NCBI GenBank assembly: GCA_001873065.1
Contig: MNYM01000015.1
Span: forward strand, 1-64,000
Origin: Flavobacteriaceae bacterium CG2_30_31_66
GTDB taxonomy: Bacteria > Bacteroidota > Bacteroidia > Flavobacteriales > Flavobacteriaceae
Direction of reading: 5' to 3'
Length of the DNA: 64,000 nt
The notes under the pieces were generated by a model. The model had not been told where the DNA came from and did no database searches. It saw only the letters and a list, made by a program, of their open reading frames with translations. Within the stretch, counting starts at the first letter, position 1; each line of letters begins with the position of its first letter. Shown one piece after another: positions 8,337-19,806 of the stretch. A program made the position numbers and the translations under genes.

Positions 8337-8442
8337 CATTATTTTAAAGAGTTTTTTTGATGATTTATTCGAGAATAAGTTTACATGGGCGAAATCGATT
8401 GAAATATAGGTTTAAGAAATGATTAATTTTAAGATTTTAAAT

Positions 8443-8470
8443 TTGTGATATTGAAAATTATGTATCTTTG
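8443..8470 (+). promoter_or_regulatory. Promoter of gdhA
   Basis: TTG at 8443-8445, a 17-base spacer, and TATCTTTG at 8463-8470 form a full match to the Bacteroidota sigma-A promoter (TTG, 17-23 bases, TAnnTTTG). Transcription would start near 8477, giving a leader of about 28 bases before the gdhA ATG. Confidence 0.7.
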
Positions 8471-8504: not shown

Positions 8505-9860
8505 ATGGAAGAAAGTATGAAATCAAAAATAGATGGCTTCATGAAGTTGGTTGAAAAACGCAATGGTCATGAACCAGAATTTTTACAAGCTGTAAGAGAA
8601 GTTGCAGAAACGGTAATTCCTTACATTATTCAACACGATATTTATCATGGCAAAAACATTTTATTAAGGATGGTTGAGCCTGAAAGATTTATTTATTTTA
8701 GAGTTTCTTGGGTTGATGATAGTGGTGAAATTCAAGTGAATAGAGGCTACAGAATTCAAATGAATTCTGCAATTGGACCTTATAAAGGAGGTTTGCGTTT
8801 TCACCCTACTGTAAATGCCAGTATTTTAAAGTTTTTAGCTTTTGAACAAGTATTTAAAAACTCACTGACAACTTTGCCAATGGGAGGTGGAAAAGGGGGT
8901 TCTGACTTTGATCCAAAAGGAAAATCTGATAATGAAATCATGCGTTTTTGCCATGCTTTTATGTCAGAATTATTCAGACATATTGGCGCAAATACTGATG
9001 TTCCTGCTGGAGATATTGGTGTTGGCGCAAGAGAAATTGGGTATATGTTTGGAATGTATAAAAAACTAAATAACGAATTTACAGGAGTTTTAACAGGTAA
9101 AGGGCAATCTTGGGGTGGTTCATTAATCAGACCAGAAGCTACAGGTTATGGAACGGTGTATTTTGCTCAAAATATGTTGCAAAGAAAAGGAATTACTTTA
9201 GAAGGAAAAAAAGTAGTGATTTCTGGTTCCGGAAATGTGGCTCAATATGCAGCTGAAAAAGCAATTGAATTGGGTGCTAAAGTTTTAACACTTTCTGATT
9301 CAACAGGGTATATTCACGTTGAAAACGGATTTTCTACTAAGCAATTGCAACATGTTATGCACATTAAAAACGTAAAACGTGGAAGAATCAGTGAGTTTTT
9401 AGAAAAATATCCATCAGAAAAATTTGTTGCAAATCAAAGACCTTGGTCAGTAGTGTGTGATATTGCTTTGCCATGCGCTACTCAAAACGAATTGAATGGT
9501 GATGAAGCAAAACAATTGATTAAAAACGGTTGTATGTGTGTTACTGAAGGTGCAAATATGCCTTCGACTCCTGAAGCTATGCACGCTTTTCAAAATGCAA
9601 GTATTTTATTTGCGCCAGGAAAAGCATCAAATGCAGGTGGCGTTGCAACTTCTGGACTGGAAATGAGTCAAAACTCATTGCGTTTAAGTTGGTCCCGTAA
9701 TGAAGTAGATGAGCGTTTGAAAGAAATTATGGAAAATATTCATAATTCTTGTGTAAAATATGGTCAAAACGAAGATGGTTCAATTGATTATGTAAGAGGT
9801 GCAAACATTGCAGGTTTCGTAAAAGTTGCAGATGCAATGTTGGCGCAAGGAGTTATTTAA
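8505..9860 (+). CDS. gdhA: Glutamate dehydrogenase, hexameric GdhA type
   Basis: A 451-residue enzyme that interconverts 2-oxoglutarate plus ammonium and glutamate, linking carbon and nitrogen metabolism. The substrate-binding region PYKGGLRFHP and the catalytic loop LPMGGGKGGSDFDP (with the reactive lysine) lie at residues 92-140. The Rossmann dinucleotide motif SGSGNVAQYAAEK is near 240. Length and the small-enzyme architecture fit the NADP(H)-preferring, 450-residue class, although the cofactor is inferred. It has its own strong promoter and terminator, so it is a single-gene unit. ATG at 8517 is an alternative start. Confidence 0.95.
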   Translation: MEESMKSKIDGFMKLVEKRNGHEPEFLQAVREVAETVIPYIIQHDIYHGKNILLRMVEPERFIYFRVSWVDDSGEIQVNRGYRIQMNSAIGPYKGGLRFHPTVNASILKFLAFEQVFKNSLTTLPMGGGKGGSDFDPKGKSDNEIMRFCHAFMSELFRHIGANTDVPAGDIGVGAREIGYMFGMYKKLNNEFTGVLTGKGQSWGGSLIRPEATGYGTVYFAQNMLQRKGITLEGKKVVISGSGNVAQYAAEKAIELGAKVLTLSDSTGYIHVENGFSTKQLQHVMHIKNVKRGRISEFLEKYPSEKFVANQRPWSVVCDIALPCATQNELNGDEAKQLIKNGCMCVTEGANMPSTPEAMHAFQNASILFAPGKASNAGGVATSGLEMSQNSLRLSWSRNEVDERLKEIMENIHNSCVKYGQNEDGSIDYVRGANIAGFVKVADAMLAQGVI

Positions 9861-11924: not shown

Positions 11925-13037
11925 ATGAATCTAAGTTATTGGGAGTTAAAAGAATGGTTTTCCAACATCGATTTTACGATTGTTGGTAGTGGAATTGTAG
12001 GCTTAAATTGTGCCTTGCAATTGAAAACAATTCATCCAAAAGCAAAAATTATTATTTTAGAAAAAGGTATGTTGCCTCAAGGAGCAAGCACCAAAAATGC
12101 AGGATTTGCTTGTTTTGGGAGTTTGTCAGAAATTTTAGATGATTTACAATCTCACACTCAAGAAGAGGTTTTTGAATTGGTAAAAAAACGTTGGGAGGGA
12201 TTGCAATTATTACGTTCAAATTTGGGTGATAAAAACATCGATTTTCAGCCAAATAAAGGTTTCGAATTGTTCAAAGAAGAGGAAATTTTTGAAGAATGTT
12301 TGCAGCAAAAAGAAGTAATTAATCAATTGTTGCATCCTATTTTTAATTCTGCTATTTTTACAATTTCTGACAATAAATTTGCTTTCCAAAAAGTGGTTCC
12401 AAAGTATATGGTAAACAATTTCGAAGGTCAAATTGATACTGGAAAAATGGCTGCAAAATTGTTGCAAAAAGTGCAGCAAAAAGGCATCAAAATTATCAAT
12501 AATATTGTTGTTGAATCATTTATAGAAAAAGAGACTGAAATACATATAAAAACCAACATATTAGATTTTTATACTCAAAATTTATTGATTGCAACTAATG
12601 GTTTTGCCAGTCAATTAATCAATGAAAATGTGCAACCTGCAAGAGCACAAGTGTTGATTACGAAACCGATTAAAAATTTGCATATCAAAGGAACTTTTCA
12701 TTTGGATAAAGGCTATTTTTACTTTAGAAATATTCATGATAGAATCTTATTTGGTGGAGGTAGAAATCTCGATTTTACCACCGAACAAACCTCGGAATTT
12801 GGACAAACTTTCATCATTCAAAATGAATTAGAAAAAATGCTTCAAGAAATTATTTTACCCAACATTCCTTTTGAAATTGAACACAGATGGAGTGGAATTA
12901 TGGGTCTTGGAAATCAGAAAAATGCCATTGTAAAACAATTGTCAAATCATGTTTTTTGCGGAGTTCGTTTGGGAGGAATGGGTGTTGCCATTGGAAGTTT
13001 GGTAGGTAAAGAATTGGCTGATTTAACGAAAAAATGA
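11925..13037 (+). CDS. FAD-dependent oxidoreductase (DAO family)
   Basis: A 370-residue flavoprotein with the FAD Rossmann motif GSGIVG at residues 21-26, an LEKG-type glycine-rich second strand, and the C-terminal GVRLGGMGVAIGSLVG that closes the FAD site in D-amino-acid-oxidase-like enzymes. The 18 residues before the Rossmann strand are an unusual extension. It overlaps the next flavoprotein gene by 4 bases (ATGA), so it is the first member of the polyketide operon by position, though it could instead be a general amine oxidase that happens to be co-transcribed. Substrate unknown. Confidence 0.85.
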   Translation: MNLSYWELKEWFSNIDFTIVGSGIVGLNCALQLKTIHPKAKIIILEKGMLPQGASTKNAGFACFGSLSEILDDLQSHTQEEVFELVKKRWEGLQLLRSNLGDKNIDFQPNKGFELFKEEEIFEECLQQKEVINQLLHPIFNSAIFTISDNKFAFQKVVPKYMVNNFEGQIDTGKMAAKLLQKVQQKGIKIINNIVVESFIEKETEIHIKTNILDFYTQNLLIATNGFASQLINENVQPARAQVLITKPIKNLHIKGTFHLDKGYFYFRNIHDRILFGGGRNLDFTTEQTSEFGQTFIIQNELEKMLQEIILPNIPFEIEHRWSGIMGLGNQKNAIVKQLSNHVFCGVRLGGMGVAIGSLVGKELADLTKK

Positions 13038-14170
13038 AAACTCAAAACACACATTTCGATGTCATTATTGTTGGTGGTGGTTTGGCTGGTTTGTGCAATG
13101 CCATTCATTTGTCAAAATTCAATAAAAAAGTATTGCTGATTGAAAAAAATGAGTATCCAAAACACAAAGTTTGTGGCGAATATATTTCTAATGAAGTGTT
13201 GCCTTATTTGGCTTTTTTAGAATTCAATCCTTTTGATTTTGGAGCTGTTAAAATCGATAAATTTCAGTTGTCAACCACCAATAACCAATTGATTTCTGCA
13301 ATATTACCTTTAGGTGGTTTTGGAATTTCTCGATTTAAATTAGATTTTGAATTGCTTCAAAAAGCCATTCAAAACGGCGTAATTTTGAGGCAAGATTTAG
13401 TCACAAATATTCAGTTTAAAAATGATCTATTTGAAGTTGAAACCAAAGAAAATCTAATAGTTACCTCAAAAATTGTGATTGGTGCTTTTGGCAAACGTTC
13501 TTTTTTGGATGTAGCTATGCAACGTGATTTTATCCAAAAAAAATCACCTTATTTGGGGGTGAAAATTCATGTGAAAGGCAATTTTTCAGATGATTTAGTG
13601 GCGCTTCACAATTTCAAAGGAGGTTATTGTGGCGTTTCAAAAGTGGAAAATAATGAGATTAATTTGTGTTATATCACCAATTTTTCATCTTTTAAAGAAC
13701 ATAAAAATATTGAGGATTTTCAAGAAAATGTGGTGTTTAAAAATCAATTTTTGAAAGAAATATTCCAAAACTCTGAATCAATTTTTCAGGAGCCATTGAC
13801 CATCAGCCAAATTTCATTTGAATCAAAAACTTTGGTCGAAAATCATATCATTATGTGCGGTGATGCAGCAGGAATGATACATCCATTGTGCGGAAATGGC
13901 ATGAGTATGGCAATCCAATCTGCACAAATCGCATCTAAACTCATTCTAAATTATTTAGAAGGTAAAATAACAAGAAGAAATACACTAGAAAACGAGTATC
14001 TTTCACGATGGAATTATCAGTTTAAATGGCGATTAAAAACAGGTCATTTTATTGCGATGTTGTTTAGACAAGATAAAATAGCTAACTTTTTATTGCTAAT
14101 TTTGAGTAAATTTCCTTTTTTAGTTCCCATAATTATTAAGCAAACGCATGGAAAACCTATAAAAAACTAA
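13034..14170 (+). CDS. FAD-dependent monooxygenase/reductase, SrsC-like position
   Basis: A 378-residue flavoprotein. GGGLAG at 14-19 binds FAD; KVCGEYIS near 50 and the second FAD motif MCGDAAGMIHPLCGNG near 280 are typical of the geranylgeranyl-reductase/phenol-hydroxylase superfamily. It lies directly before a methyltransferase and a type III polyketide synthase with 1-4 base overlaps. This is the same trio as the Streptomyces srsA-srsB-srsC phenolic lipid genes, where the flavoprotein hydroxylates the alkylresorcinol ring. By analogy it probably hydroxylates or reduces the polyketide product. The C-terminus is hydrophobic and may rest on the membrane. Confidence 0.85.
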   Translation: MKTQNTHFDVIIVGGGLAGLCNAIHLSKFNKKVLLIEKNEYPKHKVCGEYISNEVLPYLAFLEFNPFDFGAVKIDKFQLSTTNNQLISAILPLGGFGISRFKLDFELLQKAIQNGVILRQDLVTNIQFKNDLFEVETKENLIVTSKIVIGAFGKRSFLDVAMQRDFIQKKSPYLGVKIHVKGNFSDDLVALHNFKGGYCGVSKVENNEINLCYITNFSSFKEHKNIEDFQENVVFKNQFLKEIFQNSESIFQEPLTISQISFESKTLVENHIIMCGDAAGMIHPLCGNGMSMAIQSAQIASKLILNYLEGKITRRNTLENEYLSRWNYQFKWRLKTGHFIAMLFRQDKIANFLLLILSKFPFLVPIIIKQTHGKPIKN

Positions 14171-14880
14171 TGGACTTTTTTATCAACACAAAATTTAGAA
14201 CAGACAAAGAAGAATTGATGGACGATTTTTCTATTGGAGGTGATTTGTTGAGAGATACTTTGGATAAATTAGAAAATATAAATCGTTGGTTAGGAGGAAA
14301 TAAAGTAACGTTGAACGGATTGAAAAGCTTGTTGAAAAATCATCCAAAAGATAAAAAAATCACCATTATTGATATTGGTTGTGGTCATGGAGATATTTTG
14401 AGAGATGTTGCAAAATTCGGAAGAAAAGCCCAATTTCATTTGCAATTAATTGGTGTTGATGCAAATCCTGAAGCCATAAAATATGCACAAGAATTGTCTA
14501 TTGATTTTCCTGAAATTAGTTTTCGAACAGAAGATATTTTTTCGGAAAATTTTAAAAATCAGCAATTTGATATTGTGTTAGCAACCTTGTTTTTGCATCA
14601 TTTTAAAGAGGATTCGTTAATTTCATTTTTAAAAAACACCCTTCAAAACACGAAAATTGGAATTGTTGTCAACGATTTACACAGGCACAAATTGGCGTAT
14701 TATTTATTTATGACGTTGTCAATTTTCATAAAAAATAACATGATTATTGAAGATGGTTTGACATCTGTTTTAAGAGGATTTAAACGAAAAGATTTAGAAA
14801 AAATAAGCATACAAATAAACAAATCGCCTCAAATATCTTGGAAGTGGGCTTTCAGATATTTGTGGATTTTAAAAAAATAA
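14170..14880 (+). CDS. SAM-dependent methyltransferase of the polyketide operon
   Basis: A 236-residue class I methyltransferase. Motif I IIDIGCGHGD is at residues 66-75, the acidic residue that binds the SAM ribose is in GVDANPEA, and motif IV is DIVLATLFLHHF. The stop of the preceding gene overlaps its ATG by one base and its own stop abuts the next ATG, so translation is coupled across all three. By analogy with SrsB it would O- or C-methylate the aromatic lipid made by the neighbouring synthase; the target atom is not deducible. Confidence 0.88.
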   Translation: MDFFINTKFRTDKEELMDDFSIGGDLLRDTLDKLENINRWLGGNKVTLNGLKSLLKNHPKDKKITIIDIGCGHGDILRDVAKFGRKAQFHLQLIGVDANPEAIKYAQELSIDFPEISFRTEDIFSENFKNQQFDIVLATLFLHHFKEDSLISFLKNTLQNTKIGIVVNDLHRHKLAYYLFMTLSIFIKNNMIIEDGLTSVLRGFKRKDLEKISIQINKSPQISWKWAFRYLWILKK

Positions 14881-15933
14881 ATGAAAGTAAAAATCACCTC
14901 CGTCGCAAAACAATTGCCTCAATATTCTAAAGAAACAAAAGACATTATTCCTTTTGTAGAACTTTGGATGCAAGATCAAGAACCACGATTTCAACGAAAA
15001 GTCATCAAACTTTTTGAAGGTGCTGGTGTTGACAAACGGTTTTCAATTATGAGTCCTGAAGAGGTTTTCACAGCCACTTCTTTTGAAGATAAAAACAACA
15101 TTTACAAACGTGAAGTCATCAAATTGGGTGAGCAAGTTTTTATAAAATCTTTGCAAAAAGCCAACCTTCAACCTACAGATATTGATTATATTATTACGGT
15201 AAGTTGCACAGGAATTATGATTCCTTCTTTGGATGCGTATTTGATAAATTCATTGCAATTAAAACAAGATATTGTGCGTTTGCCAATCACAGAAATGGGA
15301 TGTGCAGCTGGCGTTTCAGGAATAATTTATGCAAAGAATTTTTTGAAAGCTAATCCCAATAAAAGAGCCGTTGTGATTTCGGTTGAAGCACCAACAGCCA
15401 CTTTTCAATTGGATGATTTTTCGATGGCAAATATTGTAAGTGCTGCTATTTTTGGAGATGGTGCAGCAAGCGTTATTTTGTCTTCTTATCCAGAAGATGA
15501 AGGTCCAGAAATTGTGGACGAAGCTATGTATCATTTTTATGATGCAATTCATATGATGGGTTTTAATTTGGTAAATTCAGGCTTACAAATGATTTTAGAC
15601 AAAGAAGTTCCTCAAAAAATTTCAGATCATTTTCCTGCAATAATTCATCCGTTTTTAGAAAAAAATCAGTTGAAAATTCAAGATATTGATTTTTTGATTT
15701 TTCATCCAGGAGGAAAAAAGATCGTGCAAACTGTGGAAGATTTATTTGGTGTTTTGGGTAAAAATATTGATGACACAAAAGAAGTTTTGCGTTTATACGG
15801 AAATATGTCAAGCGCCACTGTGCTCTATGTTTTAGAACGATTTATGGATCAAAATCCTAAAAAAGGAGACACAGGATTGATGTTGAGTTTTGGTCCTGGA
15901 TTTTCGGCACAACGAATTTTATTACAATGGTGA
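14881..15933 (+). CDS. Type III polyketide synthase
   Basis: A 350-residue chalcone-synthase-like enzyme with the complete catalytic triad: Cys141 in MGCAAGVSG, His275 in FHPGG and Asn308 in YGNMSSA. The C-terminal FGPGFSAQ is the type III signature loop. Such enzymes take an acyl starter, add malonyl units and cyclise the chain into resorcinols or pyrones. The Asn distinguishes it in context from FabH, as do the chalcone-synthase-like LPITEMGCAAG and the FGPGF loop. It sits in the middle of the operon: methyltransferase and flavoprotein upstream, fatty-acid-type genes downstream, suggesting a dedicated long-chain acyl starter. Confidence 0.93.
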   Translation: MKVKITSVAKQLPQYSKETKDIIPFVELWMQDQEPRFQRKVIKLFEGAGVDKRFSIMSPEEVFTATSFEDKNNIYKREVIKLGEQVFIKSLQKANLQPTDIDYIITVSCTGIMIPSLDAYLINSLQLKQDIVRLPITEMGCAAGVSGIIYAKNFLKANPNKRAVVISVEAPTATFQLDDFSMANIVSAAIFGDGAASVILSSYPEDEGPEIVDEAMYHFYDAIHMMGFNLVNSGLQMILDKEVPQKISDHFPAIIHPFLEKNQLKIQDIDFLIFHPGGKKIVQTVEDLFGVLGKNIDDTKEVLRLYGNMSSATVLYVLERFMDQNPKKGDTGLMLSFGPGFSAQRILLQW

Positions 15934-15941
15934 CAAAATTT

Positions 15942-15974
15942 AGACCTGCATGGTTTTCAAAACCTTGTAGGTCT
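15942..15974. repeat. 33-base palindromic intergenic repeat
   Basis: AGACCTGCATGGTTTTC followed by AAAACCTTGTAGGTCT folds into a near-perfect hairpin with one mismatch and one G-T pair. Hairpins with this 'gacctgcaaggttttcaaaacc' core are, from memory, common dispersed elements between flavobacterial genes. It lies between the polyketide synthase and the SDR gene and is not followed by a T run, so it is more likely a REP-like element or mRNA stabiliser than a terminator. Confidence 0.6.
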
Positions 15975-15991
15975 TTAATGAAGCATAAAAA

Positions 15992-16786
15992 ATGAAAGAT
16001 TTTCAAGGCAAAAATGAATGGGCAATTATTTTAGGAGGCTCAAGTGGTTTGGGTTTGGCAACTGCCAAAAAACTGGCTGAACAAGGCATGAATATTTGTG
16101 TGATTCACAGAAATTCACGTTCACAAATGCCTGAAATTGAAGCTCATTTTAAGGAAATCCAAACTCATAAAACTGAGTTTTTATCATTTAATTTTGATGC
16201 TTTACATCCTGAAAAAAGAAGTCAGATTATTTTTGAAATCAACCAAAAATTAGGCGCAATAGGACGAATTAAAACACTGGTACATTCGATTGCAAAAGGC
16301 AATTTAAAACCCATGATTTCTGTGGAAAAACCAATTTTACAAAATGATGATTTTCAACTAACCATCAATGCTATGGCAATTAGCTTGTATGATTGGTTTC
16401 AGGCAATTTTTCAACAAAAAATGTTTGCTGATGATGCAAGAATCATCAGTTTTACAAGTGAAGGAAATTCAAAACCTTGGGAAGATTATGGGGCTGTTTC
16501 TGCTGCAAAAGTCACTTTGGAAGCCATTACCAGAAACATCGCATTGGAATTTGCGAAATACGGAATTAGAGCCAATTGTATTCAAGCAGGAGTTACAAAT
16601 ACTCAGTCTTTACAAATGATTTCCAATAGTGATGAAATAAAAGCACATACTTTAAAAAGAAATCCTTTTGGACGATTAACAACACCTGAAGATGTTGCGA
16701 ATGTGGTGTATTTGATGTGTAAAGAGGAATCAAAATGGATTAATGGAACCATTATCAAGGTTGATGGTGGAGAAAGTTTAAGATAG
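15992..16786 (+). CDS. SDR oxidoreductase, enoyl-ACP-reductase-like
   Basis: A 264-residue short-chain dehydrogenase. GGSSGLG at residues 15-21 binds NAD(P). The active site reads DYGAVSAAK: Tyr166 and Lys173 are six residues apart (Y-x6-K), the spacing of enoyl-ACP reductases (FabI/FabL), not the Y-x3-K of ketoreductases. The position of the second FabI tyrosine is Ser156, as in FabL-type enzymes. It therefore probably saturates enoyl-ACP chains in this operon. The final NGTIIKVDGGESL is the standard SDR C-terminus. A ketoreductase role cannot be excluded. Confidence 0.8.
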   Translation: MKDFQGKNEWAIILGGSSGLGLATAKKLAEQGMNICVIHRNSRSQMPEIEAHFKEIQTHKTEFLSFNFDALHPEKRSQIIFEINQKLGAIGRIKTLVHSIAKGNLKPMISVEKPILQNDDFQLTINAMAISLYDWFQAIFQQKMFADDARIISFTSEGNSKPWEDYGAVSAAKVTLEAITRNIALEFAKYGIRANCIQAGVTNTQSLQMISNSDEIKAHTLKRNPFGRLTTPEDVANVVYLMCKEESKWINGTIIKVDGGESLR

Positions 16787-16787
16787 T

Positions 16788-17249
16788 ATGGATTCACAAA
16801 AAATTATATCATTTTTACCTTACACAAAACCTTTTTTGTTTGTGGATGAAATCACGCAAATATCAGAAAATGGTGTTATAGGAAATTATACATTCAAAGA
16901 AAATGAGTATTTTTATAAAGGTCATTTTATCAATAAACCAATTACGCCAGGCGTTATTTTAACAGAAACCATGGCACAGATTGGCGTTGTTTGTTTGGGA
17001 ATTTATTTGTTGAAAAATGAAATTTCATCAGATAAAAAACCTCAAATTGCCTTGACATCCAATGAAATAGATTTCTTTTTACCTGTTTATCCATCAGAAA
17101 AAGTAAGCATTGTTTCAGAAAAAATCTATTTTAGATTCAATAAATTAAAATGCAATGTGAAAATGTTCAATATGAAAAACGAATTGGTTTGCAGAGGAAC
17201 CATTGCAGGAATGATAAGCCCATTTTTAACAAAGGAAATAAATCAGTGA
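16788..17249 (+). CDS. FabZ-like 3-hydroxyacyl-ACP dehydratase
   Basis: A 153-residue single hotdog-fold protein. The catalytic histidine His46 is in KGHFINKPITPGV, which is the FabZ/FabA HFPxxPxxPG motif, and Glu60 in ILTETMAQIG is the second catalytic residue. It starts two bases after the SDR stop. It should dehydrate 3-hydroxyacyl-ACP. Sequence around the motif differs from housekeeping FabZ (HFIN for HFPG), suggesting a specialised paralog for this pathway. Confidence 0.88.
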   Translation: MDSQKIISFLPYTKPFLFVDEITQISENGVIGNYTFKENEYFYKGHFINKPITPGVILTETMAQIGVVCLGIYLLKNEISSDKKPQIALTSNEIDFFLPVYPSEKVSIVSEKIYFRFNKLKCNVKMFNMKNELVCRGTIAGMISPFLTKEINQ

Positions 17250-17275
17250 AAATTCGTTAAATCCGTGTCTAGAAA

Positions 17276-18556
17276 ATGAAAAATAGAGTCGTTATTACAG
17301 GTTTAGGAGTTGTTGCCCCAAATGGAGTTGGTTTAGAAAATTTTACAAAAGCAATTCAAACTGGAAAATCAGGAATTCAATTTCATCAGGAATTAAAAGA
17401 CAAAGGATTTTCATGTTGCATTGGTGGAATTCCAACTATCTCTGACGAAAAAATTGCGGAATATTTAACGCCTTTGCAATTGAGAGGTTTTCAAAGTAGT
17501 TCTATTTTGTATGGTTGTATGGCCGGAATTGACGCTTGGAAAGATGCAGGATTTTTGGTGGATGAAAATTCAGAATTAGATTCAGATTCCGGAATTATTT
17601 TTGGAACAGGTAATTCAGGAATTGAAAAATTACGAGAAGCAATTTATAAAATTGACGAAAATCAAGTAAAAAAATTGGGCAGTACTTCAGTAGTTCAAAC
17701 CATGTCAAGTGGCATTTCTGCGTATTTAGGTGGAATTTTAGGTCTTGGAAATCAAGTAACTACAAATTCTTCTGCATGTACCACAGGCGCTGAAGCCTTG
17801 TTAATGGGTTTTGAACGTATTCAAAATGGCAAAGCAAAACGAATGTTGGTGGGCAGTTCAAGTGACAGCAGTTTGTACACTTGGGGTGGATTTGACGCTA
17901 TGAGAGTCATGACTTATAAACACAATGAAACTTCCGAAAAAGGCTCAAGACCTATGAGCGAAACTGCTTCTGGATTTGTGCCTGGAAGTGGAGCAGGAGC
18001 TTTGATTTTAGAGTCTTTGGAAAGTGCTCTTGAAAGAAAAGCAACAATTTATGCAGAAGTTTTAGGAGGAAATATCAATGCTGGAGGTCAAAGAAATGGA
18101 GGGTCATTAACTGCGCCAAATGCAAGTGCTGTTCAAAAATGCATTGTGGATGCTTTGAAAGATTCAGGAATTTCTTCTGAAGAAATTGATGCTATAAATG
18201 GACATTTAACAGCAACTTCAAAAGACGATTTAGAAATTGAAAATTGGACAAAAGCACTGCAAAGAAATGGCAAAAATTTTCCGTATATCAATTCTTTAAA
18301 ATCAATGATTGGCCACTGTTTGGCAGCTTCTGGCGCCATTGAATGTGTGGCAACTGTTTTGCAAATAAAACACCAATTTCTGTTTCCAAATATCAATTGC
18401 GAAGATATTCATCCTGGAATTTCAGCGATGATTTCAACAGATAAAATTCCGACAAAAATGATTTCCAAAAACATCAATATTGTTGCAAAAGCAAGTTTTG
18501 GTTTTGGTGATGTAAATGCATGTGTTATCTTTAAAAAATATATTGACGAATTATGA
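17276..18556 (+). CDS. Beta-ketoacyl-ACP synthase (FabF/FabB family)
   Basis: A 426-residue thiolase-fold condensing enzyme. The Cys-His-His triad is complete: Cys168 in NSSACTTGAEA, His310 in NGHLTATSKDD and His347 in KSMIGHCLAASG. The first histidine motif (GHLTAT) departs from the usual HGTSTP, pointing to a specialised subfamily rather than the housekeeping FabF. It would extend acyl-ACP by two carbons from malonyl-ACP. It follows the dehydratase by 26 bases that carry a repeat-like phrase (aattcgttaaatccgtgtct), and it overlaps the acyl carrier protein gene by 4 bases. Confidence 0.92.
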   Translation: MKNRVVITGLGVVAPNGVGLENFTKAIQTGKSGIQFHQELKDKGFSCCIGGIPTISDEKIAEYLTPLQLRGFQSSSILYGCMAGIDAWKDAGFLVDENSELDSDSGIIFGTGNSGIEKLREAIYKIDENQVKKLGSTSVVQTMSSGISAYLGGILGLGNQVTTNSSACTTGAEALLMGFERIQNGKAKRMLVGSSSDSSLYTWGGFDAMRVMTYKHNETSEKGSRPMSETASGFVPGSGAGALILESLESALERKATIYAEVLGGNINAGGQRNGGSLTAPNASAVQKCIVDALKDSGISSEEIDAINGHLTATSKDDLEIENWTKALQRNGKNFPYINSLKSMIGHCLAASGAIECVATVLQIKHQFLFPNINCEDIHPGISAMISTDKIPTKMISKNINIVAKASFGFGDVNACVIFKKYIDEL

Positions 18557-18807
18557 AAAATGACGACTTAATTTCAAAATTAAAAACGATTGTAAAACCT
18601 TATATTCAGGATGAAATAGCGTTTGCAAACTTAACTGAAGACACTGATTTTATCAAAGATTTGAAAATCAATTCTGCAAATTTGGTAGATGTTATTTTAG
18701 ACATCGAAGACGAATTTGACATCGAAATTGACAACGATTCTATGGAAAAAATGCTTTCTGTAAAAGCGGCAATTGACATTATTGAACATAAATTAGCCCA
18801 AAAATGA
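18553..18807 (+). CDS. Acyl carrier protein of the polyketide operon
   Basis: An 84-residue acidic four-helix protein. Ser41 in the motif INSANLVDVILDIEDEF is the 4'-phosphopantetheine site (the DSL motif has become NSA). Its start overlaps the ketosynthase stop (ATGA) and its stop overlaps the phosphopantetheinyl transferase start in the same way, so synthase, carrier and activating enzyme are translated together. The divergent Ser context suggests it is distinct from the housekeeping ACP. Confidence 0.9.
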   Translation: MKNDDLISKLKTIVKPYIQDEIAFANLTEDTDFIKDLKINSANLVDVILDIEDEFDIEIDNDSMEKMLSVKAAIDIIEHKLAQK

Positions 18808-19352
18808 TTGGTAATGATTTGATTGATTTGCAGCTGGCAAAAAGTCAAAGTAATTGGCAGCGCAAAGGTTTTTTAGAAAAGCAATTTACAGATATTGAAA
18901 TCGCTGAAATTCTTTCATCAGAGAATCCTTTTTTGCAAGTTTGGCTTTTTTGGAGCATGAAAGAAGCTGCTTATAAATGTTATACACAAGTGTTTCAACA
19001 ACGATTTTTTGCACCAAAAAAGTTTGTTTGTTCTATGATTTCAAAAACTTTAGGAATCATAAAAATGGAGGAACAAACCTATTTTTCTACAACAACAATT
19101 ACTGAAAACTACATTCACACAGTTGTTTATAAAAAAAATACTGAAATTTTGACCTCAAAATTATTTTTGATGGATGAAAAATCATCACAATCTTCTCAAG
19201 TTTCAAACCAATTATTGTCAAGTGTTCCTTTCGCAACTGCTATTCAAAAAAATGAATTTGGCGTTCCATTTTTGTATAAAAATAAAAAGAAATTAGCACT
19301 TTCAATTTCCATTTCTCATCATGGGAAATTTGGTGCATTTGTAGTTTTATAA
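18804..19352 (+). CDS. 4'-phosphopantetheinyl transferase
   Basis: A 182-residue protein of the AcpS/Sfp superfamily. IGNDLIDL at residues 2-9 holds the first magnesium-binding acidic residues; WSMKEAAYK at 50-58 is the family's (F/W)SxKEA signature. A late FGVPFLYKN segment and ISISHHGKFGAFVV match the CoA-binding end. It transfers the phosphopantetheine arm from CoA to an acyl carrier protein, almost certainly the product of the gene it overlaps. Confidence 0.88.
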   Translation: MIGNDLIDLQLAKSQSNWQRKGFLEKQFTDIEIAEILSSENPFLQVWLFWSMKEAAYKCYTQVFQQRFFAPKKFVCSMISKTLGIIKMEEQTYFSTTTITENYIHTVVYKKNTEILTSKLFLMDEKSSQSSQVSNQLLSSVPFATAIQKNEFGVPFLYKNKKKLALSISISHHGKFGAFVVL

Positions 19353-19353
19353 A

Positions 19354-19806
19354 ATGAGGAACATCAAAAACGAATTATTAGAAACGTGCAGAAAATTTGT
19401 TGAAAATCGATTAAATACGGTTCAACAAACCTTACTTTCTTATGAAAATGATTTGCAATCAGAAACCAAAAGTTCAGCTGGTGATAAACACGAAACTGGA
19501 CGCGCAATGCTGCAATTGGAAATGGAAAAAACAGGACTGCAATTGATAGGAATTAACCAAATGATCTCGGTTTTAGATAAAATAGACATCTCAAAAAAAT
19601 CAAAAAAAGTGCATTTAGGAAGTTTGGTTTTTACAGAAAAAGACATTTATTTTTTGAGTATTTCTGCTGGAAAAATAATTGTTGAAAATGAAGTTTTTTA
19701 TGCAATTTCAACGTCATCTCCTATTGGAAAATTGTTGTTAGGAAAACAAGAAAATGAACAATTTGTGTTTCTTGGAAATACCATCAAAATTCAAAAGATA
19801 GTTTAA
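19354..19806 (+). CDS. GreA/GreB-like small protein
   Basis: A 150-residue protein with an N-terminal coiled-coil region (SSAGDKHETGRAMLQLEMEK) and a C-terminal segment STSSPIGKLLLGKQENEQF that resembles the GreA/GreB C-terminal domain, which binds RNA polymerase. It begins one base after the phosphopantetheinyl transferase stop, but its link to the polyketide pathway is unclear; in flavobacteria such genes are sometimes mislabelled '3-oxoacyl-ACP synthase', I believe because of this neighbourhood. It may be a cleavage-factor-like regulator. It overlaps the convergent ABC gene by 23 bases. Confidence 0.65.
   Translation: MRNIKNELLETCRKFVENRLNTVQQTLLSYENDLQSETKSSAGDKHETGRAMLQLEMEKTGLQLIGINQMISVLDKIDISKKSKKVHLGSLVFTEKDIYFLSISAGKIIVENEVFYAISTSSPIGKLLLGKQENEQFVFLGNTIKIQKIV

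Follow-up and report, generated by a model that had tools for sequence, protein, structure and literature searches.

Can a type III polyketide synthase (PKS) draw its acyl starter from a private set of discrete fatty-acid-type enzymes encoded beside it? The question is raised by a locus of Flavobacteriaceae bacterium CG2_30_31_66, where ten open reading frames (ORFs), all on the + strand, occupy positions 11925 to 19806 of the 64,000-nucleotide stretch of contig MNYM01000015.1 analysed here (the window). An initial annotation had placed the ten genes at these same positions and had read them as a ten-gene operon. We find instead that the biosynthetic unit is the middle eight genes. Three of these encode a FAD-dependent monooxygenase/hydroxylase-like protein (FMO), a methyltransferase (MT) and the PKS, and are referred to below as the triad. 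The other five encode a short-chain dehydrogenase/reductase (SDR), a FabZ-like dehydratase, a ketosynthase (KS), an acyl carrier protein (ACP) and a 4'-phosphopantetheinyl transferase (PPTase), and are referred to as the cassette. The evidence tips, modestly, towards a phenolic-lipid cluster in which the cassette builds an acyl starter and the PKS takes that starter from the ACP to give a phenolic or pyrone lipid with methyl and hydroxyl modifications.

The cassette is inherited with one clade of type III PKS

Two sets of genomes were compared. The first comprised 39 genomes, 24 of the genus Polaribacter (that of the window included) and 15 others of the order. A PKS orthologue is present in 11 of the 24 genomes of the genus, and the KS (E ≤ 1e-60) is found in exactly the same 11 of the 39. 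The second was a class-wide sample of 395 genomes, in which 110 have a PKS match (E ≤ 1e-25); 26 of these belong to the clade of the window PKS (at least 51% identity, the next best being 38%). All 26 carry the KS, compared with 6 of the other 369 genomes, and among the 84 genomes with a distant PKS the KS occurs in one (G151), on a different contig. Fisher's test for the PKS-KS association gives 6e-10 for the 39 genomes and 3e-35 for the 395, values that, given the shared ancestry of the genomes, are not to be read as proper probabilities. The initial claim of a discrete type II-like KS/FabZ/SDR/ACP/PPTase set stably tied to the PKS is thus borne out.

Gene order was then surveyed at 102 loci of the PKS clade, 81 of which had room for the whole cluster (at least 6.5 kb downstream and at least 2.5 kb upstream). 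The survey covered the PKS strand and, for the SDR, the 2.6 kb that follow the start of the PKS gene. FMO, MT and PKS are present in all 81 loci, FabZ and KS in 80 each, the ACP in 76, the PPTase in 74 and the SDR in 49. Those core genes that are present never change their order across these 81 loci, a comparison that had been suggested initially as a check. Because this order is conserved over many genera, a chance association is very unlikely. The homologous-protein search covered close kinds: the best 120 of the 8000 best candidates scored are all at least 83% identical. The window belongs to a Polaribacter; the nearest named record is Polaribacter sp. BAL334, the PKS of which is 99% identical to that of the window.

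The cassette-linked enzymes also group together in a PKS tree, where they lie on one side of a branch with support 88/77, recovered in 89% of 200 bootstrap trees. The tree was computed from 43 PKSs, of which 29 are cassette-linked and 14 come from the 18 distant loci. The four distant loci left out are L149, L155 and L156, whose PKSs the ORF caller called too short, and L152, in which no PKS was labelled. No cassette was found in the stretches around the 18 distant PKS loci. The other Bacteroidota PKSs lie mostly in PKS-MT-FMO triads, again with no cassette in the stretch examined, and the FMO and MT of these triads share 34-47% identity with those of the window. KS, ACP and SDR matches beside two such triads (L145 and L147) were considered as cassette members and rejected: the KSs are 30-32% identical and adjoin an RNase III-like gene (housekeeping fabF, as judged by eye), the SDR is of another kind (25% identity), and the ACP of L147 looks ordinary. 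A separate Bacteroidota PKS lineage (L140, L141, L142 and L177) adjoins a 163-residue protein, which is an ICMT methyltransferase in the three of three that were scanned. Two proteobacterial plasmid loci, by annotation, likewise pair a type III PKS with an ICMT-type methyltransferase.

The occurrence of the triad without an adjacent cassette in other Bacteroidota, and of the cassette without this PKS (see below), could mean that the two are merely neighbouring pathways, co-transcribed and chemically unlinked. We regard this as very improbable, since the presence and absence of the PKS and KS match perfectly in the genus and almost perfectly in the class sample, and gene order is kept in all loci with room, even if these counts share ancestry.

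Catalytic residues and composition of the cassette

Catalytic residues are invariant in every set of proteins aligned. Each set included the window protein, and sequences outside 0.75-1.35 times its length or below an identity floor were dropped. C141, H275 and N308 are present in 99 of 99 PKSs, C168/H310/H347 in 89 of 89 KSs, H46/E60 in 84 of 84 FabZ proteins, S41 in 83 of 83 ACPs and Y166/K173 (Y-x6-K) in 59 of 59 SDRs. The PKS, KS and SDR residues singled out in the initial annotation are therefore not only present but constant, and the PKS combines a CHS-like fold with the Cys-His-Asn triad of a type III enzyme.

The cassette is of a dedicated type II kind: KS, dehydratase, ACP and PPTase are discrete proteins, and the catalytic residues of the first three are intact. 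The KS is 31% identical to the only other KS match of its genome (E ≤ 1e-5), and so is far from the housekeeping FabF. In a KS tree with three outgroup rows, long branches and open forks, the PKS-linked and stand-alone KSs form one family, far from the outgroups. Among the PKS-linked ACPs, 77 of 83 carry the motif DLxINSA. The best NCBIfam match of the SDR is FabL (151.7 bits, under the cut-off of 328) and its best PDB match is 3oic, an enoyl-ACP reductase. The Y-x6-K spacing is of the type found in enoyl reductases.

Proposed pathway

We propose that the PPTase would activate the dedicated ACP (DLxINSA), on which the KS and FabZ, together with the FabL-like enoyl reductase in lineages that have it, would extend and reduce the chain. 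The ketoreductase (FabG), malonyl transfer (FabD) and priming would be borrowed from the housekeeping pathway. The type III PKS would load the finished chain directly from the holo-ACP onto Cys141, add malonyl units from malonyl-CoA and cyclise the product to an alkylresorcinol or alkylpyrone. The MT would methylate and the FMO hydroxylate the ring, as in hierridin-type triads, with the ring as the predicted site of both modifications.

The closest solved folds to the PKS include CylI and Steely1, the PDB entry of the latter being titled a type I/III PKS hybrid. The cluster offers a testable case of hand-off from a free-standing ACP to a type III PKS.

Observations that weigh against the proposed pathway

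Several observations weigh against this pathway. Firstly, the structural hint at ACP feeding is weak, because CsyB and THNS match equally well (all three within 1 Z). The best structural match of the PKS is Pks11, titled an alkylpyrone enzyme, and the ring may therefore be either a resorcinol or a pyrone. Secondly, the reductive cycle is incomplete within the cluster: there is no ketoreductase among the ten genes, and no FabH or malonyl transferase was found in the cluster with Pfam and NCBIfam. Thirdly, the cassette is broken up at a few loci of the clade. At L081 the PKS is accompanied by the SDR, but the stretch examined contains none of FabZ, KS, ACP and PPTase. Four further loci with room (L061, L068, L174 and L176) carry the KS, but neither an ACP nor a PPTase was found close by, and at L172 and L175 only the PPTase escapes detection.

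Fourthly, the SDR is the least constant core gene. Of 99 loci that have FabZ, 41 lack it, and in the other 10 cluster-bearing congeners it is absent genome-wide (E ≤ 1e-20) from 6 and found in 3, the remaining genome (G008) having only a 32% match elsewhere in the genome. Where the SDR is absent, either the housekeeping enoyl reductase stands in for it or the chain stays unsaturated. The second of these options leads to an alternative in which the chain leaving the cassette is partly reduced, unsaturated or polyenyl, the SDR is optional, and the SDR-less lineages make a different, perhaps pigmented, lipid. The housekeeping enzyme could, however, substitute for the SDR, and four of the stand-alone sets described below (L178, L179, L181 and L182) retain it; we consider this alternative quite unlikely.

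Finally, 6 of the 32 KS-bearing genomes of the class sample have no PKS of this clade, so that the product of the cassette is not always a PKS starter. The six, in which the KS is accompanied by its neighbours, are G043 (in two copies), G104, G126, G151, G203 and G402. G104, G126 and G203 are 83-85% complete and G402 is in 1670 contigs, and a PKS could be missed there. There is no PKS beside the set in L178, L180, L181 and L182. L178, L179, L181 and L182 are complete five-gene sets, that of L179 with a FabH-like gene inside, whilst L180 consists of FabZ-KS-ACP with a weak PPTase match and L183 and L184 are KS-ACP-PPTase at contig ends. The stand-alone ACPs carry DLxINS in 7 of 7 cases and DLxINSA in 6 of 7 (DLKINST in L179), and the stand-alone KSs carry GHLT[A/S]T. 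The initial annotation had held that separation of the PKS from the carrier protein and KS genes in relatives would speak against the hybrid. Within the PKS clade they stay together, save for L081 and the four ACP-less loci, whereas outside it the cassette does occur without the PKS.

In L182 (G151:C44:180500-200400), the SDR-FabZ-KS-ACP-PPTase set is divergent from darB, with two genes between them. The DarB match scores 634.8 against a curated cut-off of 550, and darB belongs to the dialkylresorcinol pathway. Among the six genomes darB lies beside the cassette only here; that of G104 is on another contig. The cassette may have been borrowed in one genome by the unrelated DarB pathway. The stand-alone sets and the L182 arrangement speak for a further alternative, in which the PKS would be primed by acyl-CoA or by acyl-ACP of the housekeeping pathway, and the cassette would supply a second acyl group for later attachment to the ring, in a flexirubin-like manner; flexirubins are aryl-polyene acids esterified to a dialkylresorcinol (PMC3992019, from the part of the text available, as for all papers cited here). 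Against it, there is no acyltransferase or ester-forming gene in the core eight, and inspection by eye revealed none in the 14 commonest families of additional ORFs lying within the cluster at 99 loci. We consider it unlikely, if somewhat less so than the unsaturated-chain alternative.

The cassette is, in any case, a separate module joined to one PKS clade. It is conceivable, and we put it forward tentatively, that it represents a portable Bacteroidota type II acyl-supply cassette (SDR-FabZ-KS-ACP-PPTase, with a DLxINSA-type ACP and a GHLT[A/S]T KS) that functions by itself in certain genomes and became attached, on one occasion, to a type III PKS triad. If this is true, the outcome would be a hybrid of discrete type II fatty acid synthase and type III PKS that possesses a carrier protein of its own and is conserved in many families of the class.

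Borders and layout of the cluster

The genes at either end of the initial ten-gene operon, encoding a DAO-type flavoprotein and a Gre-like protein, are not part of the pathway. Among congeners, the DAO gene occurs in 10 of the 11 that have the PKS and in 10 of the 13 that lack it. For the Gre-like gene the figures are 11 of 11 and 10 of 13, and it is also present in 7 of the 15 genomes from elsewhere in the order. Both genes occur in 9 of the 13 cluster-less congeners, where they are adjacent, the Gre-like gene following DAO on the same strand, in 9 of 9 cases, the aligned ends being 2 to 136 bases apart. The cluster sits between them in 10 of the 11 congeners that carry it; the eleventh (G012) has no DAO. 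Thus, the FMO-PPTase genes occupy a site between two ancestral neighbours, and the empty-site comparison rules out DAO and Gre as pathway members. They are to be excluded when cluster borders are drawn. Two genomes call for care: G013 was scored as cluster-less, yet its FMO is cut at a contig end and the absence of the PKS may be an assembly gap, and the FMO match of G012 begins at residue 30 and spans one stop codon, so that this copy may be damaged. Related strains with and without the cluster at the DAO-Gre site, and with and without the enoyl reductase, provide ready-made comparisons of genes and lipids.

The layout is given in Table 1. The family names of the initial annotation agree with the Pfam and NCBIfam matches, that of the Gre-like protein being sub-threshold (19.8 bits, under the Pfam cut-off of 26.9). 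Neighbouring genes had been said to overlap mostly by 1-4 bases. This holds for four of the nine junctions; of the other five, three are gaps of 0-1 base and two are gaps of 26 and 58 bases.

Table 1 Features of the locus, with positions in the window.
Feature	Position	Strand	Remarks
DAO-type flavoprotein	11925..13037	+	flanking gene, outside the pathway
FAD-dependent monooxygenase/hydroxylase-like protein (FMO), 378 residues	13034..14170	+	core gene
Class I (Rossmann) S-adenosylmethionine-dependent methyltransferase (MT), 236 residues	14170..14880	+	core gene; Methyltransf_31; PRK06202 at 140 bits, under the NCBIfam cut-off of 243
Type III PKS, 350 residues, C141/H275/N308	14881..15933	+	core gene
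REP-like palindrome in the PKS-SDR gap	15943..15973	.	insertion-prone spot; no working part
SDR, predicted enoyl-ACP reductase, FabL-like, Y166-x6-K173	15992..16786	+	dispensable cassette member
FabZ-like 3-hydroxyacyl-ACP dehydratase, H46, E60	16788..17249	+	cassette; Pfam/NCBIfam
FabF-like ketosynthase (KS), C168/H310/H347, GHLT[A/S]T motif	17276..18556	+	cassette
Acyl carrier protein (ACP), S41, DLxINSA motif	18553..18807	+	cassette
4'-phosphopantetheinyl transferase (PPTase), ACPS superfamily, 182 residues	18804..19352	+	cassette; PF01648 at 39.5 bits, cut-off 25
Gre-like protein	19354..19806	+	flanking gene, outside the pathway

At 21 of 99 PKS-clade loci, all of them among L070-L109 and L159, a fabH-accB-accC stretch precedes the cluster, mostly with DAO and Gre between. 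These loci are from Gelidibacter, Psychroserpens, some Winogradskyella and others. The genes, named by eye, are those of malonyl-CoA supply and fatty-acid initiation.

Comparison with known systems

The locus had been called SrsABC-like. The SrsABC set of Streptomyces reportedly comprises a type III PKS, a methyltransferase and a flavin hydroxylase, and the likeness holds for these three enzyme roles; SrsABC is not known to have a cassette attached. By gene arrangement, the triad resembles the hierridin type, with FMO, MT and PKS side by side in all 81 loci with room.

The hierridin-type triad of cyanobacteria (HidA/HidB/HidC) and a planctomycete operon each consist, as here, of a type III PKS, one methyltransferase and one oxidoreductase (PMC8086630, PMC10896814). 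The planctomycete oxidoreductase is FAD-dependent, like the FMO; its set yielded methylated alkylresorcinols in C. glutamicum (PMC10896814), and a modified alkylresorcinol would be the product expected here by analogy. Unlike here, no dedicated KS/FabZ/ACP/PPTase cassette is described for these operons in the texts available.

A dedicated supply is known from Azotobacter, where the fatty-acid-type synthase ArsA feeds the type III PKSs ArsB and ArsC, which accept chains from its own ACP (PMC6274091). ArsA is described as a type I, multidomain synthase, whereas in the present cluster KS, FabZ, ACP and SDR are separate ORFs and are accompanied by the MT and a flavoprotein. Other type III PKSs also take carrier-bound chains: Gcs and SCO7671 accept hexanoyl-ACP (PMC6274091), and CylI of the cylindrocyclophane pathway, one of the nearest structures here, receives its chain from a free-standing ACP and type I PKSs and can use ACP-bound substrates (PMC8086630). 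For CylI and germicidin synthase the same two texts describe no private discrete cassette, unlike here.

Within the open-licence literature, which leaves most subscription papers and bioRxiv outside its scope, and in the parts of it available, we found no account of a type III PKS accompanied by a discrete type II cassette. The nearest published designs in those texts are ArsA with ArsB/ArsC, built on a type I synthase, and the hierridin-type triad, with no cassette described. Type III PKS clusters make up about 9-11% of predicted clusters in Flavobacteriaceae (PMC7440613, PMC10734526), and the searched texts gave no characterised product for any of them. If the proposed pathway is correct, a good part of these clusters may be one conserved hybrid, in which a private discrete fatty-acid cassette loads the PKS.

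Repeats and transcription signals

The 58-base gap is the PKS-SDR junction, and contains the palindrome, which resembles repetitive extragenic palindromic (REP) elements. Allowing up to 2 mismatches, its 29-bp core (ACCT-N4-GGTTTT-N-AAAACC-N4-AGGT) matches 23 sites genome-wide, compared with 0 for a control pattern. REP-like copies also occur in the loci of relatives, four in L048 and five in L097. A related small ORF lies inside the cluster at 12 of 99 loci; the one that was scanned matches the IS200-like Y1_Tnp.

No match to the promoter-like motif TTTG/TAnnTTTG was found on the + strand between 11925 and 19806, and its count in the window is at chance (32, with 34.3 expected). Terminator-like signals number 6, with 3.8 expected. 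One promoter-like site, of a motif that occurs at chance level, lies at 8442-8470, upstream of a gdhA-like gene at 8505. Since all genes from this gdhA-like gene to 19806 are on the same strand with gaps of at most 58 bases, one long transcript across them is possible.

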